64,000 bases of DNA from Planctomycetota bacterium (GTDB taxonomy: Bacteria > Planctomycetota > Planctomycetia > Pirellulales > Pirellulaceae): NCBI GenBank assembly GCA_026692905.1, contig JAPLNL010000124.1, forward strand, positions 1 to 64,000. The letters run 5' to 3'. The notes under the pieces were generated by a model that had not been told where the DNA came from, made no database searches, and was given only the letters and a program-made list of their open reading frames with translations. Shown here in pieces: positions 1,714 to 61,972 of this stretch. Positions within the stretch are counted from its first letter, which is position 1. The number at the start of each line of letters is the position of its first letter. Position numbers and translations under genes: made by a program.

Positions 1714-1782
1714 GTAGCGAAACTCGTCAAGAGTTTCTGCCGTTCTCAAGCTCCAGTCGAAAGTCCTAGCGACTTTCGCTAC
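1714..1782. repeat. 69-bp double-hairpin intergenic repeat, copy 1
   Basis: Copy of the dispersed 68-69 bp element of this window (others at 4960, 54685, 61905; half copy at 8930). It begins GTAGCGAAACTC and ends GACTTTCGCTAC. The left half is a hairpin with stem CGAAACTC/GAGTTTC. The right half is a hairpin with stem CGAAAGTC/GACTTTCG. The two halves are inverted relative to each other, as in a REPIN. Confidence 0.75.
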
Positions 1783-1881
1783 CGCAGTGCCGATCCAGTC
1801 CGATTGCAATAGGGCGGGATGCAACTTAGAATGAGGATTCCACCTTCCTCAATCCGAACTCTCTCATTCGGCTCTCTTTTG

Positions 1882-3219
1882 ATGCACACGCAACAACTTC
1901 TGCACTTCAATCGCAATCGTCGAAACTTTTTGTCCAATACTACCATCGCGGGCTTAGGCATTAGCTTTGGATTTCACACCGGCGTTGCAAATGGACTTTC
2001 CGAATCTTCATCGCATTCCAAGTCCCCCAATCAGCGGCTCGGAATTGGGGCTATCGGGCTTCGATATCAAGGAAGCGTGATCGCTCACAAGGCGCAGATG
2101 TACGGTGACATTGTCGCTGTTTGCGATGTCGATAGAAATGTCAAAGATCAAGCCAAAGCGGCTTTCGGTAGTACTCCGCATAGCTGCGAGGATTATCGGG
2201 AACTGCTAGCTCGAAAGGACGTCGATGTCGTCACTATCGGAACGCCAGATCACTGGCACACGAAAATGGTCATCGACGCTTGTCGGGCAGGAAAGGATGT
2301 TTATTGTGAAAAGCCTTTGACACTCACGATTGAAGAAGGACAGCAGCTCGTCAAAGTCGTTAAAGAGACCGGTCGCGTCGTGCAGGTTGGATCTTGGCAA
2401 CGAAGCGACGATCGTTTTCGGCTTGCAGTTGAAATGGTCCGATCAGGTCGAATTGGCAAACTTAAGAGCGTCGATGTTGTTCTCGGAAAGAATGTTACCA
2501 GTCAATCTTTTACGGTGACCAAGCCGCCGAAAAATTTGAATTGGGAACTTTGGCAAGGGCAGACACCAGATGTACCCTACATCGAGGAAAGATCGCACTA
2601 CACATTTCGGTGGTGGTATGAATACTCAGGGGGCCAAATGACGGATTGGGGCGCGCATCACATCGACATCGCTCAATGGGCAATCAACGATTATCCCACC
2701 TCCATCGTGGGAAAAGCCAAATTCCCGACGGTCGAAAACGGATTCAACGTCGCCAACGATTTCGAGGTTGTTTATGAATACCCGAACGGCGTCACGATGA
2801 CGGTGAAAGATCATGGCGAAAACGGAATCTTGTTTACGGGGGATTCGGGCCGTATCTTTGTGAACCGCGGGAAGATCACCGGAGCGCCGGTCGAGGGATT
2901 AACTAGGAATCCGTTTCCTCGCGAATCGTGGAACGTTTACGACTTTGACAATCTCGAGAGACCCGCTCGTGCAGGGAAACTGGATGCGATCATCAATCAC
3001 ATGGGGAATTTCTTTGATTGCATTCAATCTCGTCGATTACCTATTTCGAATTTAGAGAATCAGCATCGAACGGTTTCGACTTGTCACCTTGGCAACATAT
3101 CGATGCGATTAGGAAGACCGCTCCGATGGAACCCAACAGACGAAAAGTTTGTCAACGATGTGGAAGCCAACCGGTGGTTGAGGCGAGATCAGCGAAAAGG
3201 TTATGAGACAAGCGTATGA
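1882..3219 (+). CDS. Tat-exported Gfo/Idh/MocA family oxidoreductase (paralogue)
   Basis: Second NAD(P)-dependent oxidoreductase of the same family as the gene at 249, similar through CEKPLTLTI and the WGAHH region. From the ATG at 1882 it is 445 aa with twin arginines at 13-14 (NRRNFLSN), a hydrophobic stretch to about residue 37, GIGAIGLRYQG (54-64) and EKP at 143-145. An upstream in-frame ATG at 1819 would add 21 residues before the Tat motif. I prefer 1882 because it leaves a Tat n-region of normal length, although neither start has a convincing ribosome site. The stop overlaps the start of the next gene (ATGA), so the two are co-translated. Confidence 0.88.
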   Translation: MHTQQLLHFNRNRRNFLSNTTIAGLGISFGFHTGVANGLSESSSHSKSPNQRLGIGAIGLRYQGSVIAHKAQMYGDIVAVCDVDRNVKDQAKAAFGSTPHSCEDYRELLARKDVDVVTIGTPDHWHTKMVIDACRAGKDVYCEKPLTLTIEEGQQLVKVVKETGRVVQVGSWQRSDDRFRLAVEMVRSGRIGKLKSVDVVLGKNVTSQSFTVTKPPKNLNWELWQGQTPDVPYIEERSHYTFRWWYEYSGGQMTDWGAHHIDIAQWAINDYPTSIVGKAKFPTVENGFNVANDFEVVYEYPNGVTMTVKDHGENGILFTGDSGRIFVNRGKITGAPVEGLTRNPFPRESWNVYDFDNLERPARAGKLDAIINHMGNFFDCIQSRRLPISNLENQHRTVSTCHLGNISMRLGRPLRWNPTDEKFVNDVEANRWLRRDQRKGYETSV

Positions 3220-4172
3220 TGAATTCACAACCGTTTAATCGGCGGAGTTGGTTGCAGACGGCATCTTCGGTTGCTGTGGCTGGTTGCATCTCCAATGTCT
3301 TTCAAAGGGAAAAGAGCGTTTTTGCTCAAGAGCCGGTAGCCAATTTTCGTTTGAAGTACTTGGCTGCATCATGCATGTACGGTTACGCCGATCTCGCGAC
3401 TATTCTTCCTGAAGTGGCAAAGCAAGGAGCCACGGCCTTGGATATTTGGCCCAAAGTGCATGGCAATCAACGGGAGCAAATGACGGAGCTGGGAGAGGAA
3501 GCCTTTGCAGCCCTTCTGGGAAAGCACGACGTCTCGCTCGGCTGTATCACGCAATACAAACTCGGGCCATTTGGATTGCAAGAAGAGATGCGTCTGGCCA
3601 AGCGTTTTGGCTGCAAAACAATTGTGACCGGCGCTGTCGGACCAACCAATTTAAAAGGCTCGGAACTCAAGAATGCGGTTTCGGTGTTCGTCGAGCAGTT
3701 GAAGCCGCATCTGGCTGTTGCGGAGGAGACGGGAGTGACAATCGCGATCGAGAACCACGCCAACAACCTCATCAATACACCGGATTCGTTACGTTATCTA
3801 CTTGAGTTGCGGCCGTCCAAGCATCTTGGGATTGCTCTGGCACCTTATCATTTACCGCAAGACGAAAAGCTGCTGGCCTTGCTGATCGAGGAATTGATAC
3901 CGGCATTGGCGGTGTTTTATGCTTGGCAGCACGGGGATGGCTGCATGACGCAAATGCCAAAAGAGAAAGAATTGCTTCAAATGCCCGGGCTTGGCCCACT
4001 TGACTTTGGTCCGTTGCTAAGTGCATTGAAATCGAATCGCTTCGACGGTTGGACGTCGATCTTCATGCATCCATTTCCACGGGGGATTCCGATTCTCGAA
4101 AAAGGAGACGAGGTGACCGCCGAGATAAATCGATCCCGCAACTATCTAGAAGAGTTACTTCGCAAAATCTAA
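3216..4172 (+). CDS. Exported sugar phosphate isomerase/epimerase-like TIM-barrel protein
   Basis: Predicted xylose-isomerase-like TIM barrel, the fold of sugar phosphate isomerases/epimerases. The 318-aa protein has a Tat-type leader (NRRSWLQTAS, residues 8-17, then a hydrophobic run ending near SVFAQ). The barrel then shows typical strand motifs such as ALDIWPKVHGN, VTIAIENHAN (with the metal-site-type Glu and His) and WTSIFMHPF. The start overlaps the previous stop by 4 nt, and the second ATG at 3219 is equally possible. Co-translation with the Gfo/Idh/MocA gene suggests consecutive steps on the same carbohydrate. The substrate is unknown. Confidence 0.82.
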   Translation: MMNSQPFNRRSWLQTASSVAVAGCISNVFQREKSVFAQEPVANFRLKYLAASCMYGYADLATILPEVAKQGATALDIWPKVHGNQREQMTELGEEAFAALLGKHDVSLGCITQYKLGPFGLQEEMRLAKRFGCKTIVTGAVGPTNLKGSELKNAVSVFVEQLKPHLAVAEETGVTIAIENHANNLINTPDSLRYLLELRPSKHLGIALAPYHLPQDEKLLALLIEELIPALAVFYAWQHGDGCMTQMPKEKELLQMPGLGPLDFGPLLSALKSNRFDGWTSIFMHPFPRGIPILEKGDEVTAEINRSRNYLEELLRKI

Positions 4173-4187
4173 AGGGGGAACCCGACT

Positions 4188-4883
4188 ATGGAAATCGATC
4201 GACGGCAATTCATTGCCAATTCAACGGCGGCTTCAGCATTGTTGCTCTCAGCGACAACCGTTTCCGCTGATTCCGAAACCGCAACTCAAACTCAAGCAAA
4301 GGTTCTCGCAATGTCCCAACCCAAAGTTTTGATCATTATCGGCGACGCTACTGAGACTGTGGATACGCTGTATCCGTACTATCGACTGATCGAGGGAGGC
4401 TACAAGCCAGTGGTCGCAGCTCCTGAAAAACGGAGGTATCAAATGGTTTTGCACGAGGTCAAGCCAGGCTGGACGATCACCAAGGAGTGGGAAGGCTATT
4501 CGATTGAAGCCGATATCGCGTTCAAAGACATCAAGGCCGAAGAATACGCTGGCATTTTTTTCAGCGGTGGTCGTGCGCCAGAGTACATTCGCGAAGACGA
4601 GGATTTATTGCGAATCACGCGGTGGTTTTGGGTCAACAAGAAGCCTTGTGCGAGCGTCTGTCACGGTGTCGAGATTCCGGCTAGAGCTGGTATTGTTAAG
4701 GGATTGCGAATGGCGACGGTGGCGAAGTGCAAGTTTGATTTGGAAGTATGCGGTGGAATTTATGTGAATGAGCCATGCGTGATCGATCAACACATGTTCA
4801 GCGGCCGAACCTATCATGATCACGGTTCTTACATTGGTCCATGGATCAAAGCGCTCGATGAATCTATTAAGAAAACTTCCTAA
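4188..4883 (+). CDS. Tat-exported DJ-1/PfpI family protein
   Basis: Member of the DJ-1/PfpI/class I glutamine-amidotransferase-like superfamily (proteases, glyoxalases, stress chaperones). The 231-aa protein carries a Tat signal (EIDRRQFIANST, residues 2-13). The core starts at about 45 (PKVLIIIGDATETVDT), continues with GIFFSGGRAPEY and has the nucleophile elbow ASVCHGVEIP with Cys158. A strong ribosome site (AGGGGGAA) precedes the ATG. It lies 15 nt after the isomerase-like gene, so it is the fourth member of the exported-enzyme operon. A Tat-exported member is less usual for this mostly cytosolic family. Substrate unknown. Confidence 0.85.
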   Translation: MEIDRRQFIANSTAASALLLSATTVSADSETATQTQAKVLAMSQPKVLIIIGDATETVDTLYPYYRLIEGGYKPVVAAPEKRRYQMVLHEVKPGWTITKEWEGYSIEADIAFKDIKAEEYAGIFFSGGRAPEYIREDEDLLRITRWFWVNKKPCASVCHGVEIPARAGIVKGLRMATVAKCKFDLEVCGGIYVNEPCVIDQHMFSGRTYHDHGSYIGPWIKALDESIKKTS

Positions 4884-4959
4884 GTTGCTTGACGTGATTT
4901 CCTGTCCATCGCCCACGTTTCAACAACGCTGTGCTGCATTTCGTAGCGAGTTACATTGT

Positions 4960-5028
4960 GTAGCAAGACTGGTCAAGAGTTTCGGTTGTTCGGTCGATGC
5001 AGCCGAAAGTCTTGACGACTTTCGCTGC
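4960..5028. repeat. 69-bp double-hairpin intergenic repeat, copy 2
   Basis: Begins GTAGCAAGACTGG and ends GACTTTCGCTGC. The right half keeps the CGAAAGTC/GACTTTCG hairpin. The left half has decayed and its small hairpin no longer pairs well. A fragment resembling the element's left tip (TCGTAGCGAG) lies just upstream at about 4941-4950. Confidence 0.7.
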
Positions 5029-5041
5029 TAAAAAGAAAGCA

Positions 5042-5066
5042 CGTTCCGAGGCTCCGTCTGGGAACG
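5042..5066. repeat. Short palindrome between genes
   Basis: CGTTCC and GGAACG (6 bp) flank a 13-nt GC-rich spacer. The sequence is unlike the 69-bp element next to it. It may be another minor dispersed palindrome, or chance. Confidence 0.3.
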
Positions 5067-5127
5067 CGATGCATCGGAGGCTACTCGGCTAGTTGATGTG
5101 AGAAACGTGATAAGGGTGAACAGATTC

Positions 5128-7932
5128 ATGAGTTCCAAGCTGACCATTTCGAAGACAAAACTGTTGCCAACTTTTTTCGTGGTGCAGACTCATTTGCAGG
5201 GACTTTTCACGATTCTGCTGCTCTCTTTTACCTGCCTTCACTCCAATTGCAGTCTAGTAGGTGCCGACAGCGATTTTGAAAAGGACATTTTGCCGATCCT
5301 CAAAGAGTATTGCATTGAGTGCCATGGCACCGAGGTTCAGGAGTCCAAGCTTCGACTCGATACCATGCTCTTTGCGATGCGGGGTGGCAGTTCGGGTGAA
5401 CCAATCGTTGTACCTGGGGATAGCGGACGTAGCCATCTGGTCGAGCGACTAACGAGTCGTGACCCGAAATTGCGGATGCCGCCAGAGGGGGAACCGCTTG
5501 CGGACAATGCCCTAAAACAACTGCGAGCTTGGATTGATAACGAATCCCTTTGGAAAGAAGCCAAAGATCAACTGGAAACGAAGACAACCGACCATTGGTC
5601 GTTTCAGGCGCTCAAACGCCCAGACAGTCCGGTTTCCAAAGACACGAATGCGATCGATGCATTTATCAGTGAAAAACTGCAGGACGCTGGCTTATCCATT
5701 TCGGACCGAGCCGAGAAACGGAGGCTCATTCGTCGTCTGTATCTAGTGATGCATGGTTTGCCACCTTCGAGAGAACAAGTTGACGGATATCTCAGCGATG
5801 AAAAACCGGATTCTTGGCAGCGGCTGATCGAAGAGGTTTTAGAAAGCCCTCGCTACGGTGAACGATGGGCGTCGCACTGGTTGGATCTCGTTCGATTTGG
5901 AGAGACCAATGGCTTTGAAACCAATCGCGAGCGCACGACGGCTTTTCCTTATCGCGATTGGGTCGTCAACTCATTCAACTCCGACAAACCCTACGATCTG
6001 TTTATCAAGCAACAAATCGCCGGTGATGCTTTAGGGGAACCGATCGGGACCGGATTTTTGGTAGCTGGGCCGAACGACATTGTCAAGGGACAAGACCCAC
6101 TGTTAGGGCTTATGCAACGGCAGGACGAGTTGGCTGACATTGTAAACACGACGGGCACCGCGTTCCTTGGTCTAACGACCGGCTGTGCCCGATGCCACAA
6201 TCACAAGTTTGATCCCATTTCTCAAACTGACTACTACGCGATTCAAGCCGTTTTTGCAGGGGTTGAGCATGGGGAGCAAACATTGCCGCTTGCCCCGGCA
6301 GCCAAGGCAAAGGCCCAGGCCATGGAGGAGCAAATTCAACAGTTGCGGATATCGCTTGCCAAGTACTCACGCAACCAAGGCACACGTGAGCCTGTCAATG
6401 CTGTCGAAAATACGGAGCGCTTTCTACCATTGGAGGCCAAGCGGGTCCGATTCACGATTCATGCCACCAATGCTGCTGAGCCTTGTATTGATGAGTTGCA
6501 GGTCTTCTCAGGTGAGCAGAATGTTGCCTTGCGTTCCGTAGGTTCTGTTGCCACTTCATCGGGCAGCTTGGACCATCCTCTTCATAAACTTGAGCAGGTT
6601 AACGACGGTCAGTTTGGAAATCCGCAGAGTTGGATTGCGAGCACGGTTGCTGGAAGCTGGGTGCAACTTGAATTTTCTGAAGTTCAGAAAATCGATCGCA
6701 TCGTTTGGGGGCGGGATCATACTGGACGCTACGCGGACCGAGTTGCGACCGAATACCAAATCGAATCATCCTTGAATGGAACGGAATGGCAGACGGTTGC
6801 CAGTTCTGCGGATCGATTGCCATTTACGAAGGGCAAAGTCGAGAACTCCTACGATTTTAAAGGGCTGCCGGAGGAAGAAGCCAACAACGCCAAGCTCGCC
6901 CTAAATCGTATGCAATCGTTGAGCAAGGAAAGAGAGCAGTTGCTTTCAGCGAACAAGGTTTATTCGGGGACTTTCTTTCAACCACCTGCAACACACCGCA
7001 TGTATCGTGGCGATCCTACAGCCCCTAAGGAACAGGTGATCCCCGATGCAATTCGTGTGTTGGGGTCGTTGGGCCTCGCTGCGGACGCGCCTGAACAACA
7101 ACGTCGCGTTGCCATTGCAAACTGGATCGCTAGTCCAGCGAACCCATTGACGGCACGCGTATTGGTCAATCGACTTTGGCAGTTTCATTTTGGCGTGGGG
7201 ATCGTTGATACTCCATCTGATTTTGGGGCCAACGGAACGCAGCCAAGCCATCCGCAGCTTCTCGATTGGCTCGCTTCGGAGTTTATCGATCAGGGCTGGT
7301 CGATGAAAAACATGCATCGCTTGATTTTGACTTCGAAGACGTGGCAACAGGACAGTCGGCCGCGAGTTGAAGGGATGCAAGTCGATGCTGGGTCGCGATT
7401 ACTATGGAGGTTTCCTCCGCGGCGGTTGGAAGCGGAAGGGATTCGAGATTGTATTTTGATAGCCACGGGCAAACTCGACTTGAGTGTTGGCGGACCAGGT
7501 TTCAGCGCGTTCGAGATCGCAATGGAAAACGTACGGCATTATTTTCCAAAGCAGGAATATGGACCCGTTGATTGGCGGAGGATGATTTATATGACCAAGG
7601 TGCGGCAGGAAAAGGACTCAACTTTCGGCGTGTTTGATTGTCCTGATGGTAGTCAAGTGACCCCGAAACGAAGCCGATCGACGACACCTTTACAAGCCCT
7701 CAATTTATTGAATAGCCGCTTCGTCATGCAACAAGCGGAATTGTTGGTCGATCGACTCGCGAGAGAGTGCGATGGGACGGAAAAGAAGATTTCGTGCGCC
7801 TTTGCGCTTTGTTTCGGACGCGATGCTAACGAGCAGGAGTTGGCATTGGCGGAAGTGTTTGTTGCCGAGCACGGCTGGGTGCATTTCGCGCGAGCGATGT
7901 TGAACGCAAACGAATTTGTATTCATTCCGTGA
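5128..7932 (+). CDS. PSCyt1-DUF1549-DUF1553 planctomycete cytochrome-type protein with discoidin insert
   Basis: Large exported protein of the planctomycete multidomain class. From the ATG at 5128 it has 934 aa: a long hydrophobic leader (about 20-50), a planctomycete cytochrome-c domain with C62-IE-C65-H66, then DUF1549 including a second CxxCH (GCARCHNHKFDP). An F5/8 type C (discoidin)-like carbohydrate-binding region follows at roughly 440-570 (GSWVQLEFSEVQKIDRIVWG), and DUF1553 lies at the C-terminus (RVLVNRLWQFHFG, QALNLLNSRF). An upstream GTG at 5098 is in frame, but the ATG gives the better leader. The heme motifs suggest redox work at the membrane, and the discoidin insert suggests glycan binding. 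The function of the class is not established. Confidence 0.9.
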   Translation: MSSKLTISKTKLLPTFFVVQTHLQGLFTILLLSFTCLHSNCSLVGADSDFEKDILPILKEYCIECHGTEVQESKLRLDTMLFAMRGGSSGEPIVVPGDSGRSHLVERLTSRDPKLRMPPEGEPLADNALKQLRAWIDNESLWKEAKDQLETKTTDHWSFQALKRPDSPVSKDTNAIDAFISEKLQDAGLSISDRAEKRRLIRRLYLVMHGLPPSREQVDGYLSDEKPDSWQRLIEEVLESPRYGERWASHWLDLVRFGETNGFETNRERTTAFPYRDWVVNSFNSDKPYDLFIKQQIAGDALGEPIGTGFLVAGPNDIVKGQDPLLGLMQRQDELADIVNTTGTAFLGLTTGCARCHNHKFDPISQTDYYAIQAVFAGVEHGEQTLPLAPAAKAKAQAMEEQIQQLRISLAKYSRNQGTREPVNAVENTERFLPLEAKRVRFTIHATNAAEPCIDELQVFSGEQNVALRSVGSVATSSGSLDHPLHKLEQVNDGQFGNPQSWIASTVAGSWVQLEFSEVQKIDRIVWGRDHTGRYADRVATEYQIESSLNGTEWQTVASSADRLPFTKGKVENSYDFKGLPEEEANNAKLALNRMQSLSKEREQLLSANKVYSGTFFQPPATHRMYRGDPTAPKEQVIPDAIRVLGSLGLAADAPEQQRRVAIANWIASPANPLTARVLVNRLWQFHFGVGIVDTPSDFGANGTQPSHPQLLDWLASEFIDQGWSMKNMHRLILTSKTWQQDSRPRVEGMQVDAGSRLLWRFPPRRLEAEGIRDCILIATGKLDLSVGGPGFSAFEIAMENVRHYFPKQEYGPVDWRRMIYMTKVRQEKDSTFGVFDCPDGSQVTPKRSRSTTPLQALNLLNSRFVMQQAELLVDRLARECDGTEKKISCAFALCFGRDANEQELALAEVFVAEHGWVHFARAMLNANEFVFIP

Positions 7933-8367
7933 GTGCGACTCGGATTTCTTCGGTCACTCTGTGGGCCATGTGAGCGCGAGGATTTCTAGGGACTTTCCCC
8001 TAGCTATCGCATTTCGTCTCAACTAGCCTTGATTTGACGACCGATGTTTTGTTATTAGGTCTTTCGAATGGATTTGGCCCACGCTGCCAAGCATGGACTT
8101 AGTCGCTGGTTCGAATTCCCTTTACGTTTTCGTTTCCGATCGAATTCGGTCTGAGTTCTATCTTTTAGTGAGGTGGTTGCTTGCAGAATCGTTGGATGAT
8201 GTAACGCGGAAACTCTCCTGCCCTCTCGGTTCGTTTGCTTACTTGACCGCACACACTTTGTAAGCGAGTGAATCACCGCGCTGCTTCTCGCGGCTCATGT
8301 AATCTCCTCGATAGTCTCATACGACATTCGATCTACCCAAGGAGTTTTCAATTGAGGGTTCGCGGTC
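7933..8367. other. 435-bp intergenic region without a recognisable gene
   Basis: No convincing coding frame on either strand. A small 6-bp palindrome (CTAGGG/CCCTAG, 7986-8003) lies shortly after the preceding stop. A GGTTCGAATTCC stretch near 8110 resembles a tRNA T-loop but has no tRNA around it. The 3' part presumably holds the promoter of the next gene, but no clear -35/-10 pair stands out. Confidence 0.5.
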
Positions 8368-8931
8368 ATGTTATCAATGTCTTTTGTATTCTGTCTCATT
8401 GTTTCCGCCTCCATATCACATAGGGGCAACCAATCCGTCGACGAGTATGTCGACCTGATCGAGCTCAATCATTTTTTCGATCAGCAAGGGCGACTCGTTT
8501 ACGATCAGGTTGTTTTTTACGAGCGAGCACCAGAAACGGGCAAGTTTCAAGTCAGAGCTTGGTGTCTCGTCGAGGATCGAGAATACCTCAACCGACGCCC
8601 GGTCAAAAATCTAGAAACCGAACTCTATCAGGTCGATTGGTTTGATACCGACCAACGCCTTCTTCGCAAGATAACCAGTCGACTCTATCGCGAGAGTTGG
8701 ACGCAGGTCGACCCTGAGCGATCCAACAAGAAGTTTCATGACGAGCGACTTCGTATTTCGTTGATCCAGAATCCAAAGAAATTTCAGCAGTCCCAAACCC
8801 AGGAGCCAGACGAACCCAAGCACACAGTTCCAACGCCTGCGATTGCTATAACAGCGGCAGAGCAACGGGCAGTTCCAGTGGTAACGCCTGTTTCGACAAC
8901 GCCTGCTGTCGCATCAGGATTGCAACGATAG
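8368..8931 (+). CDS. Hypothetical protein with short hydrophobic N-terminus
   Basis: I do not recognise this 187-aa protein. Residues 1-16 are hydrophobic and could be a signal peptide or anchor. The middle (about 25-135) is rich in charged residues and predicted beta/alpha, with RVRAWCLVEDREY-like and LRKITSRLYRESWTQ segments. The last 45 residues are Pro/Thr/Val/Ala-rich and probably disordered. The TAG stop lies at the edge of a half copy of the 69-bp intergenic repeat, so the present C-terminus may have been set by insertion of that element. Codon use resembles the neighbours and I regard it as a real gene. Confidence 0.65.
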   Translation: MLSMSFVFCLIVSASISHRGNQSVDEYVDLIELNHFFDQQGRLVYDQVVFYERAPETGKFQVRAWCLVEDREYLNRRPVKNLETELYQVDWFDTDQRLLRKITSRLYRESWTQVDPERSNKKFHDERLRISLIQNPKKFQQSQTQEPDEPKHTVPTPAIAITAAEQRAVPVVTPVSTTPAVASGLQR

Positions 8932-8950
8932 TCTTGACGACTTTCGCTAC
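8930..8950. repeat. Half copy of the 69-bp repeat
   Basis: AGTCTTGACGACTTTCGCTAC matches the right end of the 69-bp element. The left half is missing. The TAG stop codon of the upstream gene (8929-8931) runs into it. Confidence 0.65.
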
Positions 8951-8962
8951 TCACTCACTTTT

Positions 8963-9685
8963 TTAAACGAACAAAACCGAGCCGATGCGAACCATGGTGG
9001 CTCCTTCCTCGATGGCTGCTTCGAAGTCGTCGCTCATTCCCATCGACAACTCTTTGAGTGGCAGACCAAATTGTTTCGCCCATCGATCTCGTAGATTTCG
9101 CAGTGCTTCAAAATCCTTTCGAGCTTGGTCGATGCCCCCTTCCAAGCTTCCCATGCCCATCAGTCCGGACATTTCTAAATTCGGATGCTTTGCCGGTTCG
9201 GTCAGCCAGGCGGTCAGTAGCTCTTCCGCTTCAGGAATCATCATTCCGGTTTTGGTCGGATCGCCAGAGACATTCATTTCCAGCAATAGCTGAAGAGGTA
9301 AGTCGCGATGCAAAGAGTCCAATTGGACTTGCTCCAAAATTCGAAAGGAGTCTAGAGAGTGCATCGCAGTCACCAGAGGGAGAGTCCGTTTGGCTTTGTT
9401 CCGCTGCAAATGACCTATCAAATGCCATTTAATCCGCAAATCCGACAGAGCCTCTGCCTTTTCCCAAAGGACTTGCGGACGGCTTTCTCCCAAGTTTTCA
9501 CAGCCAAATTCCACGAGCCAGCTCGCAACCGAAGCGTCGACGTACTTGGTCACCCCAATCATTTTCACGTCTTTTCCAAGTCTGCCCGAACGGGCGGCGG
9601 ATTGCTCAATTCGCTCCAAAACGCGCGAATAATTGGCATGGAGTCGCTCTTTGCTTGGGTTGTACCTATTTGCCAAGTTGGCCAT
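8963..9685 (-). CDS. yggS: YggS/PLPBP family PLP-homeostasis protein
   Basis: Pyridoxal-5'-phosphate-binding homeostasis protein, a single-domain alanine-racemase-like barrel that buffers free PLP. From the ATG at 9685 it is 240 aa. Family marks are MIGVTKYVD with the PLP lysine K47, ENLGESRPQ, the signature WHLIGHLQRNKAKR, LEMNVSGDPTKTGM, SGLMGMG and LSMGMSDDFEAAIEEGATMVRIGS. An upstream in-frame start at 9760 would add 25 residues unlike the family and overlap the palindrome at 9745, so I reject it. Divergent from the MerC-domain gene. Confidence 0.95.
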   Translation of the reverse strand: MANLANRYNPSKERLHANYSRVLERIEQSAARSGRLGKDVKMIGVTKYVDASVASWLVEFGCENLGESRPQVLWEKAEALSDLRIKWHLIGHLQRNKAKRTLPLVTAMHSLDSFRILEQVQLDSLHRDLPLQLLLEMNVSGDPTKTGMMIPEAEELLTAWLTEPAKHPNLEMSGLMGMGSLEGGIDQARKDFEALRNLRDRWAKQFGLPLKELSMGMSDDFEAAIEEGATMVRIGSVLFV

Positions 9686-9744
9686 GTGGACTTTCCGGTT
9701 TGTTATCCATGAACAATTCGAATGCAAACATTTTGGAATTCTTT

Positions 9745-9759
9745 TGCAATAACATTGCA
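9745..9759. promoter_or_regulatory. Fur/Zur-like palindromic operator candidate
   Basis: Perfect 6-bp inverted repeat TGCAAT-AAC-ATTGCA in the divergent region between yggS (start 9685) and the MerC-domain gene (start 9841). The length, symmetry and AT-rich halves resemble boxes bound by Fur-superfamily regulators, which would suit a gene whose product has metal-type Cys and His clusters. The link to a regulator is inference. No regulator gene is adjacent. Confidence 0.4.
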
Positions 9760-9840
9760 TGTGCGCCTGAATTCGATATGATAACGTACCGACGAGGCGT
9801 GAGACACGAGGTCCAATTTACTTAGGAGCACAACTATACC

Positions 9841-49349: not shown

Positions 49350-49374
49350 TCAGGGCCAACCAGGACAGTCCAAT

Positions 49375-52335: not shown

Positions 52336-52344
52336 CTGCACACG

Positions 52345-53235: not shown

Positions 53236-53246
53236 GCTAAAGCAGA

Positions 53247-54518: not shown

Positions 54519-54684
54519 TGGCAATCAGTGAGTGAAGTGGAAGGAATCAAGCGAACAAGAAACGTCACACTCATGATACGAAACAAATCCACTTTGTTCC
54601 ACCGACAATGAAAAACGATGCTTGCAACCGTGAAGGGCCGCCTCATTCTTTTGTCGCCATTTCGGGCAACATTACCAAGCAGTC

Positions 54685-54753
54685 GTAGCGAAACTCGTCA
54701 AGACTTTCGGCCGATTAGGCAATCCTGCCGAAAGTCTTGACGACTTTCGCTAC
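54685..54753. repeat. 69-bp double-hairpin intergenic repeat, copy 3
   Basis: Begins GTAGCGAAACTCGTC and ends GACTTTCGCTAC, with CTTTCGG and CCGAAAG arms in the inner part. The right half is a clean CGAAAGTC/GACTTTCG hairpin. It lies in the 333-bp gap between the divergently placed dapL start and the folD end, which otherwise shows nothing recognisable. Confidence 0.75.
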
Positions 54754-54851
54754 ACCAATACCCTATACAAAGTTCTGGGTAAAGCTAAGACTTATCCGCC
54801 ACGGCTTGGGATTTGTCGGCCTTTCAGACTTCATTTCCGCACCTTCAAAAC

Positions 54852-55742
54852 TCACGCTTGGGTTTGTGATTGCCCCGCCTTCGCGGCAGCAAGCGTATTC
54901 TGCAACAACATCGCAATCGTCAATGGGCCGATGCCACCAGGAACAGGTGTTATGGCTCCTGCGACTTGTGAGACAGCTTCAAAGTCCACGTCGCCTACGA
55001 TTTTTTCGCCTAATCGATTGATGCCAACGTCGATAACCACCGCGCCTGGCCGAACCATGTCTGCCGTGATGAAGTTCGCTTTGCCGATGGCAACAACCAG
55101 AATGTCCGCGCGTCTAGTTATCTCGGCCAAATTGGTGGACTGGCTGTGGCAACATGTCACGGTGGCATTTGCGTTTGTTTGTCCCAGCGGCCCTGTCTTT
55201 TGAAGAAACATCGACACCAGTGGCTTGCCAACAATATCGCTTCGACCCACCACCACGACCTCTTTGCCAGACGTCTCGATGTCGCATCGACCAAGCAATT
55301 GCAGGACGCCATGCGGAGTACAAGGCAAAAATCGCGGACGACCTTGAGAAATGAGCCCTACGTTTTCTGGTGAAAACGCATCAACATCTTTGGCCGGCAA
55401 AACAGCATCCAACACTTGCCGTTCATTGATTTGCTTAGGCAAGGGCAATTGAACCAAAATACCGTGAATCTTGGCGTCGCGGTTAAGTTGAGCTAGTAAC
55501 TCTAGTAATTCACTTGTCGTTGTCGTGACCGGCATTCGAAACAACCGGCTCTGCAGTCCCGCTTTCTCGCATGCTATTTCCTTATTGCGAACGTAAACTT
55601 GACTTGCGGGATCGTCCCCTACAAGCACGGCAGCCAAGCATGGCACAATCCCCCGTTGCGAGGTCAAGGTTGCAACTTCCCCAGCGATTTCTTTTCGAAT
55701 CTGCATCGCCAAGGTTTTGCCATCTAAAATACGTGCGGTCAT
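54852..55742 (-). CDS. folD: Methylenetetrahydrofolate dehydrogenase/cyclohydrolase FolD
   Basis: Bifunctional enzyme interconverting 5,10-methylene-THF, methenyl-THF and 10-formyl-THF. The 296-aa protein shows Y50 and the catalytic K54 (SQVYVRNKEIACEKAG), ILVQLPLPKQI, KDVDAFSPENVG (usually KDVDGF) and CTPHGVLQLL. The NAD(P) loop is VVVGRSDIVGKPL and the C-terminal marker is ITPVPGGIGPLTIAML. Housekeeping gene of one-carbon metabolism. Confidence 0.97.
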   Translation of the reverse strand: MTARILDGKTLAMQIRKEIAGEVATLTSQRGIVPCLAAVLVGDDPASQVYVRNKEIACEKAGLQSRLFRMPVTTTTSELLELLAQLNRDAKIHGILVQLPLPKQINERQVLDAVLPAKDVDAFSPENVGLISQGRPRFLPCTPHGVLQLLGRCDIETSGKEVVVVGRSDIVGKPLVSMFLQKTGPLGQTNANATVTCCHSQSTNLAEITRRADILVVAIGKANFITADMVRPGAVVIDVGINRLGEKIVGDVDFEAVSQVAGAITPVPGGIGPLTIAMLLQNTLAAAKAGQSQTQA

Positions 55743-55904
55743 TAGAAAAGTTACTTGAAAGAGTGTGGGAGTTTGCTTTGCGAGTGGAGCCGTTTCGGGA
55801 TATCGGCAATGGACTCATTTGTTATATTGTTTGGTTGGGTGGTTCGTCGAGCCTGAATGGTAATCCGATAGCAACGATCAAATGGTAATCACGTTACTCA
55901 AATT

Positions 55905-55974
55905 GAGCCGCAGGCGCTAGCCGCGACAACCGCGTTTGCCAGGGAAACCGTAACGCGTCCAGCGCCCGCGGCTC
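55905..55974. repeat. 70-bp palindrome (AGCCGCAGGCG type)
   Basis: Arms GAGCCGCAGGCGCT and AGCGCCCGCGGCTC pair in 13 of 14 positions around a 42-base loop. Shares the AGCCGCAGGCG word with the element at 49913. It lies in the 337-bp gap upstream of the sulfite reductase gene; no other signal is obvious there. Confidence 0.6.
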
Positions 55975-56079
55975 TGTAAATTGCCTGCAACAATTACAAC
56001 GTAATTACTACTAGGCTTCGGCCACCCAAACGTCATTTGCCACCAATCCTGTTTCCACACGATAGAAAACCTTTCCGAA

Positions 56080-57813
56080 ATGGCCGACAACGAAAATCCT
56101 GCCGAAGAAAAGCTTAGCCCCGTCGAAGGGATGAAGATCGCAAGCAACTACCTACGCGGAACCATTGCTGCTGAATTGGCCGCCCCAACAGACCATTTCG
56201 GCAAAGAAGACCTGCAGCTTCTCAAGTTCCACGGCACCTACCAACAAGACGACCGCGAAGCTCGCGGCGCTGCGACCGAAAGCGGCAAATCGGAAAAAGC
56301 ATACAGCTTTATGGTCCGCAGCCGAATTCCAGCTGGCATCATGACCAGTGCGCAACTCCTTGCACACCTTGATCTGTGCGATGAAATCGGCAACACCACT
56401 TTGAAAGTAACGACTCGACAAGGTCTCCAGCTACACGGAATTTTGAAGTCCGATCTGCGTCAATGCATTCAGCGCATCAACGAAGTTCACTTAAGCACTC
56501 TCTCCGCTTGCGGTGACGTCAATCGCAACGTGATGGCTTGCCCAGCACCTTTCCAAGACAACATTCGCCCTGTGATTCAAAAGCTCGCTTATGATTTAGC
56601 GATGCACTTGGCACCAAGCACCAAAGCGTATTACGAACTTTGGCTTAAAGATCCAGAAACCGGCGAAGAAACGCTTGAGGGAGGTAGCGACGAAGTCTAC
56701 GAACCCATCTACGGCAAAACGTATTTGCCTCGTAAATTCAAAACCGCCATCGCTCTGCCCGATGACAACTGCGTAGACGTCTACACAAATTGCTTGGGCT
56801 ACATCGCCGTGATCCGCGATGGCAATATCATCGGTTATAACGTTGTGGTCGGCGGCGGACTTGGTGTGACCCCCAGCGCCAAAAAGACGTTCCCTAGGCT
56901 TGCCACACGCATGGCTTTTGTCACTCTAGAACAAGCGATCGGAGTCGGTGAAGCGGTCGTCAAAGTTCAACGCGACTTCGGTAACCGTGGCGATCGCAAG
57001 CGAGCCCGACTCAAGTACTTGATTCACGACGAAGGAATCGAATGGTTCCGTGCCAAAGTCGAGGAGTACTACGGCTCCAAGCTGGCTGATTGCACTCCAG
57101 ATGACGTTCGCGAACACAATGACCATATGGGCTGGGATCAGCAAGGGGACGGCAAATGGTTCTACGGATTCAACGTCGAAAACGGTCGTTTGTATGACAA
57201 CGAAGACCGCGCGTGGAAGGCCGCGCTCCGGGACATCTGCAAAGAGCTGAATCCCGAGATTCGATTGACTGCGCACCAAAGCATTCTGTTCTGCAATATC
57301 GAAGAAAAGGACAAGAGCAAACTAGAGTCGCTCATCAAGAAGCGGGGGTTGCCTTTAACGGAAGAGCTCTCGAACGTGCGACGTTGGTCGATTGCTTGTG
57401 TTGCAATGCCCACCTGCGGATTGGCTATCACTGAGAGTGAACGCGCGTTGCCTGGCCTGATCGATGACCTCGAGAAAGTACTCGCAGACATGGGCTTGGA
57501 CAAGGAGTTGTTTACGCTTCGTATGACCGGCTGTCCAAACGGCTGTGCAAGACCCTATAACGCCGATATCGGATTGGTCGGCAAAGCCAAGGGGAAGTAC
57601 ACGATGTTCGTTGGTGGCACCCGTCTTGGAACGAGACTAGCGTTCATTTTCAAGGATCTCGTTCCCTTCGAGAACATCGTTTCCACGCTCAAACCGCTCT
57701 TTGTGGCATTCAAAGCAGAGCGACAAGGAAACGAGACGTTCGGTGATTTTTGCACTCGGGTTGGCAACGAACAACTAAACCGCTGGCACGACGAAACCAA
57801 CCTACCAGCGTAG
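56080..57813 (+). CDS. cysI: Siroheme [4Fe-4S] nitrite/sulfite reductase
   Basis: Six-electron reductase of assimilatory sulfur or nitrogen metabolism. The 577-aa protein has the two repeated ferredoxin-like halves (MVRSRIPAGIMTS, LKVTTRQGLQLHG, FKTAIALPDDNCVDV). The coupled siroheme-Fe4S4 ligands are C440 and C446 (ACVAMPTCG) and C485 and C489 (TGCPNGC). The length and segments fit the sulfite reductase hemoprotein subunit; nitrite as substrate cannot be excluded. Its TAG stop is immediately followed by the first REP of the RAYT element. Confidence 0.92.
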   Translation: MADNENPAEEKLSPVEGMKIASNYLRGTIAAELAAPTDHFGKEDLQLLKFHGTYQQDDREARGAATESGKSEKAYSFMVRSRIPAGIMTSAQLLAHLDLCDEIGNTTLKVTTRQGLQLHGILKSDLRQCIQRINEVHLSTLSACGDVNRNVMACPAPFQDNIRPVIQKLAYDLAMHLAPSTKAYYELWLKDPETGEETLEGGSDEVYEPIYGKTYLPRKFKTAIALPDDNCVDVYTNCLGYIAVIRDGNIIGYNVVVGGGLGVTPSAKKTFPRLATRMAFVTLEQAIGVGEAVVKVQRDFGNRGDRKRARLKYLIHDEGIEWFRAKVEEYYGSKLADCTPDDVREHNDHMGWDQQGDGKWFYGFNVENGRLYDNEDRAWKAALRDICKELNPEIRLTAHQSILFCNIEEKDKSKLESLIKKRGLPLTEELSNVRRWSIACVAMPTCGLAITESERALPGLIDDLEKVLADMGLDKELFTLRMTGCPNGCARPYNADIGLVGKAKGKYTMFVGGTRLGTRLAFIFKDLVPFENIVSTLKPLFVAFKAERQGNETFGDFCTRVGNEQLNRWHDETNLPA

Positions 57814-57955
57814 AGTGTAAAACGATTGTCCTCAATCGTTTCGGCGCTGCCAGAAACAAACGAAATCAGATTCAGACCACAAATCGCTTCGCAGTCACTT
57901 GGCCAACTTGAGCCTAAAGTGCCCGCCAAGCGATTGAGACAATCGCTCTACTCTC
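57814..57955. repeat. Left REPIN flank of the RAYT gene
   Basis: Two REP hairpins in inverted order about 87 bases apart: AAACGATTG-TCCT-CAATCGTTT at 57820-57841 (perfect 9-bp stem) and AGCGATTG-AGA-CAATCGCT at 57929-57947 (perfect 8-bp stem). The spacer (CAGATTCAGACCACAAATCG and onwards) recurs nearly unchanged right of the transposase gene, so the gene is bracketed by about 140-bp direct repeats. Confidence 0.85.
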
Positions 57956-57970
57956 TTGTACGCCCTTACG

Positions 57971-58669
57971 ATGAACAATCCCAAGAAAGTGCTGTTCAAT
58001 GCATTTGATCCCGATGCGGAAATCGAATTCTCAGAACGCAACCTGCCGCACTGGTTTCAAGTCGATGCAGCCATGTTCGTTACTTTTCGAACGATGGATT
58101 CACTTCCGAAGGATGTGCTGCTTCGGATGCAGCGTGAACTTGAAGGTTGGTTAGCGATCAAGCAACTTCCTCTGGAAATAGCTGCATCAACCATGGGCGT
58201 CAAACATTCGAGTCACGAAATGCTACTTAATCGATTAAGCCAGATGGATCGTGTGCACTTTCGTAAGGTAGCGGATCGCTTGTTTCATGGTGCCTTGGAC
58301 GAATGCCATGGCAGGTGCCTACTGAGACGTCAAGAACTTGCGAATATCGTGGCGGAAGCGATCTTACATCATGCCGATGAGCTGTACGATCTCGACTGTT
58401 TCGTAGTGATGCCCAATCATGTCCATGTGATGGTTCAGTTTCGTACAGAGAAGGCCAAGTCGATTGTTGGACAAAGTTGGCTACGATATACAGCGAGACA
58501 GATAAACTTGAAAACATCGGAAACCGGTGCATTTTGGCAGGCAGAACCGTTTGACCACGTGATTCGGAACGCAGAGCAGTTTAATTACTTGCGGAGTTAC
58601 GTAGCCAAGAATCCTATCAAGGCGAGTTTGCGTAGCGGTGAGTATTTGCTGTGGCAGCGTCCAGTGTAA
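57971..58669 (+). CDS. REP-associated tyrosine transposase (RAYT, Y1 HUH)
   Basis: Single-domain HUH transposase of the RAYT (TnpA-REP) group, thought to cleave and spread REP hairpins. From the ATG at 57971 it is 232 aa: FVTFRTMDSLPKDVLL near the start, then the metal-binding HUH in DCFVVMPNHVHVMV (H150/H152). The C-terminal helix FDHVIRNAEQFNYLRSYVAK holds the candidate catalytic Tyr (Y206 or Y210), followed by NPIKASLRSG. A TTG at 57956 is an alternative start. The TAA stop lies inside the right-hand REP, and both flanks are REPINs, so the mobile unit is complete. No frame damage is seen, so it may be active. Confidence 0.9.
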   Translation: MNNPKKVLFNAFDPDAEIEFSERNLPHWFQVDAAMFVTFRTMDSLPKDVLLRMQRELEGWLAIKQLPLEIAASTMGVKHSSHEMLLNRLSQMDRVHFRKVADRLFHGALDECHGRCLLRRQELANIVAEAILHHADELYDLDCFVVMPNHVHVMVQFRTEKAKSIVGQSWLRYTARQINLKTSETGAFWQAEPFDHVIRNAEQFNYLRSYVAKNPIKASLRSGEYLLWQRPV

Positions 58670-58819
58670 AACGATTGTCCTCAATCGTTTCGGCACTGCC
58701 AAACAACCCTCGAATACCCCGCAATCGAAATCAGATTCAGACCACAAATCGCCTCGCGGTTGCTTGGCCAACTTGAGCCTAAAGTGCCTGCCAAGCGATT
58801 GAGACAATCGCTCTACTCT
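58663..58819. repeat. Right REPIN flank of the RAYT gene
   Basis: Starts AGTGTAAAACGATTG (which includes the RAYT stop codon) and ends with the inverse hairpin AGCGATTG-AGA-CAATCGCT. It repeats the left flank with small changes and about 15 extra bases in the spacer. Both hairpin stems are preserved. Confidence 0.85.
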
Positions 58820-58829
58820 GGCGGCCAAA

Positions 58830-58870
58830 AGTGTAAAACGATTGTCCTCAATCGTTTCGGCACTGCCAAA
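58830..58870. repeat. Additional single REP unit
   Basis: AGTGTAAAACGATTGTCCTC and following bases, ending GGCACTGCCAAA, repeat the first hairpin unit of the RAYT flanks once more, 10 bases after the right REPIN. This makes a tandem arrangement with no second inverted partner. Confidence 0.8.
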
Positions 58871-58918
58871 ATACATTCAAACCCAATCCAACCGCAGTTG
58901 TTCGGTCCGAGTTACTGA

Positions 58919-59350
58919 CTATCGAGGTATAACGGCGATAATTTGCCGAGTGCCCGGATCATTGACGTTGACCATGCCATCGTTGCCGATGTCCGCACTC
59001 ACTCGTCGACCATTCCTGCCCGCTTCGGTACCTGCGACCGCATATCCCTGTGGCAAGTACTCCGTGTAAAGCACTTGGCCATTGTTAAGATGCACTGCAT
59101 AGTGCAACACATAGCTGCCTCGATCCAGCGGTGCTGCTAGTTTGTTCACATAAGAAATTCCGGAGGCTGGCGATGCGGAGTACATTGTGGTTGGCATCGC
59201 GGCAATTGTGGCTGGGTAAGTCATCGGAACGACTCGTGTTGTGTACGTCCGAGGAACATAGGAGCTTGTACCGCAACCGCATTGAGCTTGTGCGGAACCA
59301 GTCAAGAATGCAAATCCAAGAACGCAGAGCCCTGTCGTTAAAATCTTCAT
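58919..59350 (-). CDS. Small secreted hypothetical protein
   Basis: 143-aa exported protein with a typical signal peptide (KILTTGLCVLGFAFLTGSAQ, cut near AQA-QC). GGAG 7 nt upstream of the ATG at 59350 decides the start against a longer frame. The mature part starts QCGCGTSS and is rich in Tyr/Thr/Pro/Ala. It then shows a compact segment (SYVLHYAVHLNNGQVLYTEY) and a Gly/Asn-rich end. I do not recognise a family. It lies just right of the RAYT cluster in the opposite orientation. Confidence 0.7.
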   Translation of the reverse strand: MKILTTGLCVLGFAFLTGSAQAQCGCGTSSYVPRTYTTRVVPMTYPATIAAMPTTMYSASPASGISYVNKLAAPLDRGSYVLHYAVHLNNGQVLYTEYLPQGYAVAGTEAGRNGRRVSADIGNDGMVNVNDPGTRQIIAVIPR

Positions 59351-59532
59351 TACTATCTCCAGTAGAAAAACATGGGTGATGCACATAGTGTGCAAACTAG
59401 GTTGGCCAACTAACGCCCTGCTGTCGAACGCGGAAAAAGTCGATAACGCGCGATAGTTCTCTCACTAAAGTGTAACAACAATTTCAACTGTTGTGCGTTG
59501 CGAACGCGTCTCCACTTTTCTTGTTCTACGGA

Positions 59533-59588
59533 GCACGACGCGCATGCTAGTGGATCGACATTCTAATTCACTAGCTTGCGCGTCGTGC
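59533..59588. repeat. 56-bp palindrome with 20-base arms
   Basis: Arms GCACGACGCGCATGCTAGTG and CACTAGCTTGCGCGTCGTGC match with one mismatch around a 16-base loop. On the plus strand GGGGCATTTTT follows. A half copy lies at 19531. It is in the 310-bp gap after trpA (minus strand), where it may also act as a transcription end. Confidence 0.7.
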
Positions 59589-59660
59589 TGGGGCATTTTT
59601 CCTGCTTAAGCGACCAAAAACCGCGATATTTACTATGATATCCCAAAGAAACAGACCGTC

Positions 59661-60461
59661 TCAGTTCCCGGCCGCCGGCAACAAAGACGTAACCAACTGC
59701 TCAATGGCCGCCAAAGCCGATTCCTCAGAAACCGCTGCTTGCTCCATCAACTTCACAATTGCGGACCCTACAATTAGACCGTCCGAGACCGGCGCCAACA
59801 TTTTCACGTGTTCAGGTTTGGATATGCCAAAGCCTATGCAAATCGGCAATGGAGTACGTTCACGCAACCAGGACACTCGCTCCACCAAATCCGGTGGAAG
59901 CTCAGTTCGCTCGCCGGTTATCCCGGTCACACTCACGAAGTAAAGAAATCCGCTGGACTGTTCTGCTATCTTCAACGCCCGCTCCCGAGGTGTTGTGGGT
60001 GTTACCAGCTGAATCAAATTGAATTGGTTGGCTGTGCAAATCTTGGCAAGCGAGCCACTCTCCTCAACCAACAAATCGGGAACAATCGCGCCCGCAAATC
60101 CAGCCTTCATCGCTTCTTCGACAAATCGCTCCGGACCTTGTCGGTGAATGATCGCATAGCTAACCATCGAAACCATCGGCATCGATAGATTCGGTTTCTC
60201 TAAGGCAATCTGATCAAAGATATCATGTAGCTTGACTTTGTTCCCAAGCGCACGAGTATATGAGGCTTGAATGACCGGCCCGTCCGCGATCGGATCGCTA
60301 TAAGGAATCCCAACCTCTGCCATCGAACAACCAAGCTGATTCAGTTTGCGCAGCACTTTTCGAGTGAATCCTAGATTCGGGTCTGCAGCTGTGATAAACG
60401 GCATAAAGGCTTTTTTGCCCTCTGCTTTGAGACGGACAAAAAGATCGTCAATGGATGTCAT
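59661..60461 (-). CDS. trpA: Tryptophan synthase alpha subunit
   Basis: Cleaves indole-3-glycerol phosphate to indole, passed to TrpB. From the ATG at 60461 it is 266 aa, with the catalytic residues at canonical numbers: E49 (MAEVGIPYSDP) and D60. Others visible: VTPTTPRERALKIAE, FLYFVSVTGITGER (loop 6), ICIGFGISKPEHVK and GLIVGSAIVKLME. It follows trpB by 40 nt in one operon. A longer frame to 60530 adds unlike sequence and is rejected. Confidence 0.97.
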   Translation of the reverse strand: MTSIDDLFVRLKAEGKKAFMPFITAADPNLGFTRKVLRKLNQLGCSMAEVGIPYSDPIADGPVIQASYTRALGNKVKLHDIFDQIALEKPNLSMPMVSMVSYAIIHRQGPERFVEEAMKAGFAGAIVPDLLVEESGSLAKICTANQFNLIQLVTPTTPRERALKIAEQSSGFLYFVSVTGITGERTELPPDLVERVSWLRERTPLPICIGFGISKPEHVKMLAPVSDGLIVGSAIVKLMEQAAVSEESALAAIEQLVTSLLPAAGN

Positions 60462-60501
60462 TTCGTGTTCCAATCCTACGGTGTGTGTGAGAGCCGCCCA
60501 A

Positions 60502-61749
60502 CTACCAAGCTTGACCGCGAAGCCGCGCAAGTTCGCCAGCGTCTTTGTCTCCCCGACCGGATAGACAAATCACTAAGTGTTGATCGGGGGACATCGTCTT
60601 GGCGGTTTCAGTAGCCTTTGCAACGGCATGGCACGTTTCCAATGCAGTCAGAATCCCTTCGTTGCGAGCTAGGAAATCAAATGCTCCGAGCGCTTCATCG
60701 TCGCGACAAGAGGTATACTCGACCCGTCTCGAGTCCTTCCAGTAGCTATGCTCTGGTCCAACACCGGGATAATCTAAACCGGCAGACATGGAGTGAACGT
60801 CGCTCGTCTGACCATCTTCGTCTTGCATCACATAACTGTAAGAGCCGTGAAGGACGCCGGGTGAACCGTAGCTCAATGGGGACGCATGATCGCCGGCCGC
60901 CGAGCTCCTACCTCCGGCTTCAACTCCAATCAGTCGAACACTGTGGTCATCTACGAACGGGTGGAACATGCCAGCTGCATTGCTACCACCACCAACACAA
61001 GCCACAATCGTGTCCGGCAAGCGACCGATGGCGGACAGACATTGCTCACGGCATTCGCGGCCAATCACGCTTTGGAAGTCTCTCACCATCATCGGGAATG
61101 GATGCGGCCCGATTACGGAACCGATGATGTAATGAGTATTCTCAACGCTCGACATCCAATCGCGCATGGCTTCGTTGACTGCGTCTCGCAAAGTCCGCGA
61201 ACCGCTTTCAACAGGTCGGACCTCGGCTCCCATCAATCGCATGCTGAAAACATTTGGCTTCTGTCGTCGTACGTCTTCCGAACCCATGTACACCACGCAA
61301 GGGAGACCGAAGTGCGCACATGCGGTTGCGGAAGCAACCCCGTGCTGGCCAGCGCCTGTTTCCGCGATCACGCGCGTCTTCTTCATTCGAAGCGTCAATA
61401 ACGCCTGCCCTAAGGTGTTGTTGATTTTGTGGGCGCCGGTGTGATTGAGGTCCTCTCGCTTTAGCCAGATTTGAGCACCACCAAGCTGCTTGCTCAGCCG
61501 CTTGGCATGATACAACGGAGATGGCCGACCGACGAAACGATGCAACAATTCATTCAGTTCGGCCTGGAAATCAGGATCCTTGATGGCTCGATCGTATTCG
61601 ACCACCAACTCATCCAGCGCTCGCGTCAACGTTTCTGGCACATAGCGACCACCAAAGTCTCCGAAGCGCCCGTTTCGATCAGGAACCTGTTTTGTCGCGG
61701 TGGTTTCGGTCAAGTTCTTATTTGCTTCTTGGGGATGGGCAAGACTCAT
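60502..61749 (-). CDS. trpB: Tryptophan synthase beta subunit
   Basis: PLP enzyme joining indole and serine to form tryptophan. The 415-aa protein shows [13 protein letters not shown], the PLP lysine K108 in [55 protein letters not shown] (phosphate loop) and ISGRGDKD-like [13 protein letters not shown] at the end. Standard trpB1-type length. No other trp genes lie in this window. Upstream lies a 69-bp repeat copy, no clear attenuator. Confidence 0.97.
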
Positions 61750-61904
61750 TCGGTCTCAGCGATCGTTGGAGGGAATAACAAATTTATTTTCAAAAACAAT
61801 TTCAAGTTTCATTCAACGTACCTTACTCCCCCTCGCCCTTGTAAAAGGGAGTGGGGGCCGGCAACGCTGTACAGCATTTTCCGCTGCTAAAAACAGGGTT
61901 TTGT

Positions 61905-61972
61905 GCAGCGAAAGTCGTCAAGACTTCGGCTGCATCGCCTAAACGACCGAAACTCTTGACGAGTTTCGCTAC
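61905..61972. repeat. 68-bp double-hairpin intergenic repeat, copy 4
   Basis: Begins GCAGCGAAAGTCGTC and ends GAGTTTCGCTAC. Here the right hairpin uses the CGAAACTC/GAGTTTCG stem and the left the CGAAAGTC/GACTTCGG stem, the reverse of copy 1, one base shorter overall. It lies between the cysteine desulfurase stop and the trpB start. Confidence 0.75.

Follow-up and report, generated by a model that had tools for sequence, protein, structure and literature searches.

An intergenic repeat of 68 to 69 bp, found at five places in a 64,000-nucleotide stretch of DNA from a Planctomycetota bacterium of the Pirellulaceae (GenBank assembly GCA_026692905.1, contig JAPLNL010000124.1, positions 1 to 64,000; the window), very likely represents a family of repetitive extragenic palindromic (REP) doublets forming hairpins (REPINs), probably copied by a REP-associated tyrosine transposase (RAYT) that is encoded elsewhere in the same genome. 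The proposal of a REPIN family, made in a preliminary description of the window, is borne out by inverted pairs of GTAG-tailed REPs, by many intergenic copies and by the occurrence of the same repeats on either side of a RAYT gene. The element is of a known, ordinary kind; the interesting part is that its two halves are unlike.

Anatomy and stem changes of the repeat family

A search of the whole source genome (G000; 5.96 Mb in 148 contigs) with the half-element pattern, allowing up to 3 mismatches, gave 147 plus 157 matches, or 304 half-sites, while the reversed pattern gave no match in the same genome; the repeat family is therefore beyond chance. A covariance model built from 18 copies returned 150 matches at 146 distinct places, a figure to be read as a floor (all 150 scored candidates matched) and as a set that leans toward well-preserved copies. 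The genome-wide count proposed in the preliminary description thus stands at no fewer than 146 places rather than one or two. The planctomycete host assigned there also stood, the genus-group relatives being entered as Planctomycetaceae bacterium and Pirellula staleyi.

In the consensus, which is 69 bp long and asymmetric, a GTAG tail is followed by a hairpin, a 19-nt spacer, an inverted hairpin and a CTAC end, so that two inverted REPs stand head to head with their GTAG tails outside. The first half has the inner stem CTC/GAG and the loop GTCAA, and the second, inverted half has the inner stem GTC/GAC. When the copies were oriented to this consensus, 130 of the 146 carried C-G on the left and G-C on the right; 84 copies were inserted one way and 62 the other. 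The copies are dispersed and mostly intergenic: among the 138 that could be scored (8 had too little context), 121 lie between open reading frames (ORFs), with 66 in tandem, 40 in convergent and 15 in divergent neighbour layouts, and 17 overlap a predicted ORF.

The preliminary description had noted that two pairing-preserving stem versions switch places between copies 1 and 4 of the window, and had taken this as covariation. The two copies do carry the versions in opposite halves, but the cause is the orientation of insertion: the stems appear swapped because copy 4 is the same asymmetric heterodimer inserted backwards, and the two versions are simply the two halves of one element. The argument from covariation falls with this. 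Across the 146 copies there were 2306 stem pair positions with letters on both sides, of which 2210 were unchanged and 96 changed. Ninety-one changes were one-sided (73 breaking the pair, 18 leaving G.T), 2 were unpaired doubles and only 3 were compensated doubles, all 3 at the flipped pair (10/20 or 50/60). Compensatory covariation within the genome was accordingly rejected, even though the covariance model rewards pairing and the set of 146 copies would, if anything, favor compensated ones. In a comparison of few copies, a lopsided element that inserts both ways can give the appearance of covariation.

Stem mutations that stay uncompensated, the outcome that the preliminary description had set against its own reading, prevail within the genome and at 13 sites shared with a close relative (G107), and are present in copies of both genomes, but they are not the pattern between species. 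At loci with RAYTs at least 60% identical to the candidate partner described below, the inner stems read GTC/GAC, CTC/GAG, CAC/GTG, TGC/GCA, GCC/GGC, CGC/GCG, TTC/GAA and ACC/GGT. In 44 distinct between-species REPs (chosen from 69 listed rows, with identical ones merged and a few decayed ones dropped by hand), 96.3% of the stem positions pair, and 30 paired positions are changed on both sides, compared with 7.2 in shuffles; none of 500 shuffles, a control that ignores relatedness, reached as high. Sliding the partner strand abolished the effect. These alignments indicate that stem covariation is real between species, among REPs beside related RAYTs.

A likely cognate transposase on contig C59

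A search of ten REPIN-rich genomes with the NF047646 profile found a RAYT on another contig of the source genome (C59:539-916, 33 bits, E 1.8e-7), and this gene is likely, judged by its sequence and surroundings, to be the cognate partner of the repeat. It occupies L160:464-1057 and has intact HUH and Tyr motifs (MPDHLHLLW and EYIARNPER), which we take to hold the catalytic residues, as assigned from the family and from a 4ER8 alignment of another RAYT. Three REPINs lie upstream, the last ending 9 nt before the ATG, and two lie downstream, the first beginning 38 nt after the stop codon. REPINs of this type thus stand to either side of the gene, as in a REPtron. They (L160:1-454 and 1096-1353) are arranged in tandem units of 183 bp, without the outer flank of the dispersed copies. 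The single-stranded REPs that the C59 RAYT is predicted to bind and cleave read GTAGCGAAASTC.

Full-length homologs at 60% identity or more were found at 18 loci in 17 genomes (two partial matches, fragments in G223 and G088, were left out). REPs of the GTAGCG type were present at 18/18 of these loci, or 17/18 by a stricter scan, and at none of 17 RAYT loci of lower identity that were examined; the REP sequence changes with the RAYT between species. When genomes of the host's family were scanned with the REPIN model (R1), with about 21 candidates scored per genome under stricter filters, matches were obtained in 17/17 genomes that have such a RAYT and in 82/224 of the others (Fisher P 1.1e-7).

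Several observations weigh against this assignment, or against recent mobility in general. The score of 33 bits lies below the curated NF047646 cut-off of 80 bits, and a PF01797 search of the source genome, which found 7 genes, missed the C59 gene. The other RAYTs tested from this genome likewise fall below 80 bits, so the cut-off looks strict for the phylum. Among the 22 genomes in which exact heterodimers occur, a full-length RAYT of at least 60% identity is present in no more than 6 (G000, G142, G153, G155, G159 and G161), and 16 have none; G107, with 203 heterodimer places, has no such RAYT in its assembly. Many of these genomes are represented by fragmented assemblies, from which a tandem-repeat REPtron may have dropped out. 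Furthermore, 13 of the 15 insertions that could be mapped are common to G107, which indicates little recent movement, and the sites not shared by the two genomes are not clean empty sites. Lastly, mobilization by the RAYT is a prediction from sequence, and neither excision nor transposition was observed.

Two other RAYTs of the genome were considered as partners and rejected. The RAYT in the window, placed at 57971 in the preliminary description, had been judged there not to be the obvious partner, and this holds: it is ruled out, being flanked by other repeats. The gene spans 57956-58669, has HUH and Tyr motifs, and its flanking repeats read AAACGATTGTCCTCAATCGTTT and GTAGAGCGATTGTCTCAATCGC. 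The RAYT on contig C99 (L033) was rejected because Phe stands at the Tyr position and its relatives lack such REPs. A REPIN does lie 26 nt after its stop codon, but given these two features and the same REPIN at the same place in G107, it looks like a bystander, and the C59 RAYT fits far better as the partner.

The C99 gene (L033:1198-1875, minus strand) retains the HUH motif but reads RFVESHP in place of the RYVERNA of its relatives. The same change from the catalytic Tyr to Phe occurs in the genus-group relatives L072-L077, and in two more distant ones HUH is lost too (loci L095, L098 and L100 were left out of the motif comparison, being in the wrong frame). Between the C99 gene and its G107 counterpart the nonsynonymous divergence (dN) is 0.027 and the synonymous divergence (dS) 0.48, which indicates that the gene is kept by selection; against G106 the ratio is undefined, dS being saturated. 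It is possible that this RAYT has been retained without catalysis. Three RAYT-like genes (L035, L036 and L034, on contigs C54, C68 and C88) have flanking palindromes of their own, e.g. GGGACCATTGTCCC and GTTCACTAGCTGGCG, and the genome is predicted to contain several independent REP systems. In G107, a related RAYT with 50% identity (L161, contig C91) goes with another REP type, GTAGCCGGAGTCGCCAGACTTCGG.

Copies in the window, shared sites and outer flanks

The four full copies and the half copy were all confirmed (Table 1). Scored against the family consensus at every 7th start position of the window, the four full copies gave 39 to 54 and the best score elsewhere was 10. Some details of the preliminary description had to be amended. 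The full copies do lie between ORFs, but the half copy shares 2 nt with the end of the ORF at 8368-8931. The supposedly common ends GTAGCGAAA and TTTCGCTAC are both present only in copies 1 and 3; copy 2 has GTAGCAAGA and TTTCGCTGC, and copy 4 starts with GCAGCGAAA and, when read on the minus strand, departs from the family consensus at two points, a substitution and a deletion. The boundary of 68 to 69 bp was partly wrong, as copy 4 extends further into an outer inverted repeat.

Table 1. Repeat copies in the window and the outer inverted repeat around copy 4
Feature	Position	Strand	Remark
REPIN copy 1	1714..1782	+	C-type half first; diverged spacer; none found at the orthologous place in G107
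REPIN copy 2	4960..5028	+	C-type half first; left stem in partial decay
Single REP, G-type (half copy)	8926..8950	-	One mismatch; REPIN remnant, whole in G107
REPIN copy 3	54685..54753	+	Left stem CTC versus GAC, mismatch uncompensated
Second arm of the outer inverted repeat of copy 4	61862..61880		24 nt beyond the G-type half
REPIN copy 4	61905..61972	-	Heterodimer in reverse orientation; also at the orthologous place in G107
Outer inverted repeat of copy 4, arm adjoining the C-type half	61973..61991		Inverted relative to 61862..61880

The comparison with G107 covered 0.97 Mb, and copies were placed by both flanks. Fifteen of the 146 source-genome copies could be placed, of which 13 sites were occupied and 2 were not (window copy 1 and C119:303792). 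In the reverse direction the 19 rows listed stood for 17 distinct places: 13 occupied in the source genome, 3 not, and 1 corresponding to the half copy. Since the REPIN of G107 at that last place is complete, its arms perfect and its spacer 32 nt long, the half copy is most simply a remnant, in which the decay of a REPIN to a singlet has been caught. At C17:24248, G107 has a REPIN with outer flanks and the window has none, in surroundings that differ. As a separate observation, the first 91-97 bases of the window (bases 1-97) match ten separate G107 places at 85-93% identity and constitute another dispersed repeat.

At the 13 shared sites, 34 of 648 arm positions, 23 of 246 spacer positions and 219 of 2250 positions in the 100-bp flanks differed; the arms are less diverged than the flanks (Fisher P 2.6e-4) and the spacer is similar to them. 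As conservation this is suggestive only, because the copies were chosen by the model in the source genome, part of the flanking DNA is coding, and positions within an alignment depend on one another. The lower arm divergence and the position of most copies downstream of genes would suit an element at gene 3' ends that is selected by the host and is not mobile (a terminator, an mRNA stabilizer, or a gyrase or IHF site). We consider this improbable, as the stem changes are mostly uncompensated, some copies overlap predicted ORFs, the arm figure is biased toward conservation by the choice of copies, and the presence of the same element on both sides of a RAYT speaks for mobility.

The outer inverted repeat is not peculiar to copy 4. 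An 18-nt left flank (at least 12/18 matches) accompanies 94 of the 146 copies, compared with 11 hits among 20000 random 18-mers of the window; the right flank was matched in 78 of the 146 and both flanks in 64. Excluding 5 elements with too little flank, an outer inverted repeat score of at least 20 was reached by 35/141 copies, by 1/141 when the right flank was shuffled and by 148/1398 pairings with the right flank of another copy. In one variant of the outer repeat, GAAGC/GCTTC is replaced by TTCGC/GCGAA on both sides. The flank was also present in 40 of 54 G107 REPINs. The amplified unit in the source genome is therefore often composite, roughly 135 bp rather than 69 bp long.

It would be quite unlikely, in our judgment, that this larger unit is the true mobile element, resembling a miniature inverted-repeat transposable element with terminal inverted repeats that is moved by another transposase, with the REPIN carried along as a passenger or inserted into it at an early stage. 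The frequency of the flanks in both genomes and their outer inverted repeat speak for such a unit, but the REPINs adjoining the C59 RAYT lack the flank, REPINs occur in other genera in other contexts, and the flank is almost never found without a REP: at 5 of 73 sites in source-genome stretches chosen around REPINs, and at 1 of 29 sites in G107, where 754 kb was covered in stretches picked mostly by contig number, with six of the sampled contigs already seen to hold REPINs.

The unlike halves of the element

Unlike halves are the rule in this REPIN type. In the 241 genomes of the family, the exact heterodimer pattern was found at 426 places, spread over 22 genomes and 11 of 68 genera (76 in the source genome, 203 in G107), including at least 2 tail-to-tail places (G161) and possibly more in REPIN-rich genomes, while head-to-head homodimers numbered 15, as counted by reading the listed matches, the remaining homodimer matches not being head-to-head. 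Six were of the GTC type (G000 1, G107 4, G171 1) and nine of the CTC type (G000 1, G107 2, G142 1, G144 1, G155 3, G157 1). The comparison of 426 with 15 covers only the one flipped position and no other heterodimers, and descent of whole units accounts for much of the excess within a genome.

Among the RAYT lineages, 14 of the 17 REPtrons that could be scored contain REP pairs whose inner stems differ and yet pair fully (G113, with no head-to-head pairs, was left out), and the flipped pair differs between lineages: CTC with GTC, CTC with CAC, ACC with CTC, GCC with TGC and TTC with CTC. We offer only as a tentative reading that the REPIN needs two non-identical halves and that lineages of one RAYT clade, found across the host's family, have repeatedly flipped different inner pairs under selection. 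Per site, the two halves differ more often in the stem (0.162) than in the loop (0.069). A single loop mutation would also break the long hairpin, yet the stem differences are commoner, and this hints that the inner stem pair is read as a left/right label.

Folding with DNA parameters gave an ensemble energy of -26.1 kcal/mol for the consensus heterodimer and -33.7 kcal/mol for either made homodimer, while the state with local hairpins only had -17.9 kcal/mol in all three. The flip, made in silico, thus weakens the long hairpin by about 7 kcal/mol and spares each local hairpin; in 99 natural gap-free heterodimers the median energy gap was 6.7 versus 14.1. In the proposed sequence of events, the C59 RAYT or its relatives would nick the single-stranded REP at the replication fork and would then copy or move the REPIN, as for known TnpA_REP. 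With one inner stem pair flipped (C-G versus G-C), each REP hairpin stays perfect, while the long hairpin from pairing both halves has a C.C and a G.G mismatch; once inserted, single copies mostly decay with no compensation. The mismatched long hairpin could conceivably bias the single strand toward two local hairpins that the RAYT can bind, although we are inclined to doubt it. Similarly, we hold only loosely to the idea that unlike halves may be selected, either because the RAYT acts on the two-hairpin state or because the host destroys a long perfect palindrome.

Two results count against these proposals. The heterodimer still prefers the long hairpin at equilibrium (two-hairpin probability 1.5e-6), so the two-hairpin idea depends either on protein binding or on folding that stays local while the DNA is lagging-strand template. 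In addition, 3 of the 17 REPtrons show no inner-stem difference, those of G050 and G155 having homodimers and that of G170 differing elsewhere in the stem. Template switching in the hairpin (quasi-palindrome correction), by which the covariation would merely reflect a mutation mechanism, might account for the confinement of the compensated changes to the flipped pair and for the resemblance that the loops of the two halves tend to show within a species, but it is very unlikely, as frequent correction should make one-sided changes rare and should homogenize the halves, the opposite of what was found on both counts.

Literature on REPINs and RAYTs that touches planctomycetes includes PMC3733652 and PMC6006769. 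In Di Nocera et al. (2013; PMC3733652), GTAG REPs are reported in planctomycetes, R. baltica is named among the genomes with several families, REP dimers are nested in longer palindromes in other bacteria, and a preference for heterodimers is stated without obvious explanation. The repeats described here resemble those REPs in their GTAG tail, 8-bp stem, 5-nt loop, head-to-head dimers and heterodimers, and also in the complementary stem changes between sub-families, the tandem or convergent location and the REPtron beside a RAYT; the same kind of flip recurs here, with different base pairs, in related RAYT lineages.

The elements are also similar to the REPINs of Pseudomonas fluorescens SBW25, as presented by Bertels and Rainey (2011; PMC3116915), in that two inverted REPs surround a spacer in a non-autonomous, RAYT-linked unit. 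In contrast to the SBW25 REPINs, described there as symmetrical, the halves here differ by a compensated pair and many copies have an outer inverted repeat. Like the y and z REPs of enterobacterial bacterial interspersed mosaic elements (BIMEs) and REPINs, where unlike REP pairs are served by one TnpA_REP according to PMC8266576 and PMC8049555, our elements combine unlike REPs; the E. coli REPs differ by length and by a required stem bulge, whereas here both stems are perfect and one pair is flipped. For SBW25 it has been proposed that a long hairpin is poorly recognized and a clover-like double hairpin is recognized by the RAYT (PMC3116915), and for some RAYTs cleavage is reported to be almost lost when a perfect REP stem receives a mismatch, while complementation of the stem has a moderate effect (PMC8266576). 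Both fit a compensated flip.

In summary, the repeat provides a well-resolved case: a single genome carries it together with one intact RAYT in a REPtron, insertions are shared with a close relative, and about 17 REPtrons are related. Because the compensated difference between the halves recurs, it opens to direct test why heterodimers are so common among REP dimers.

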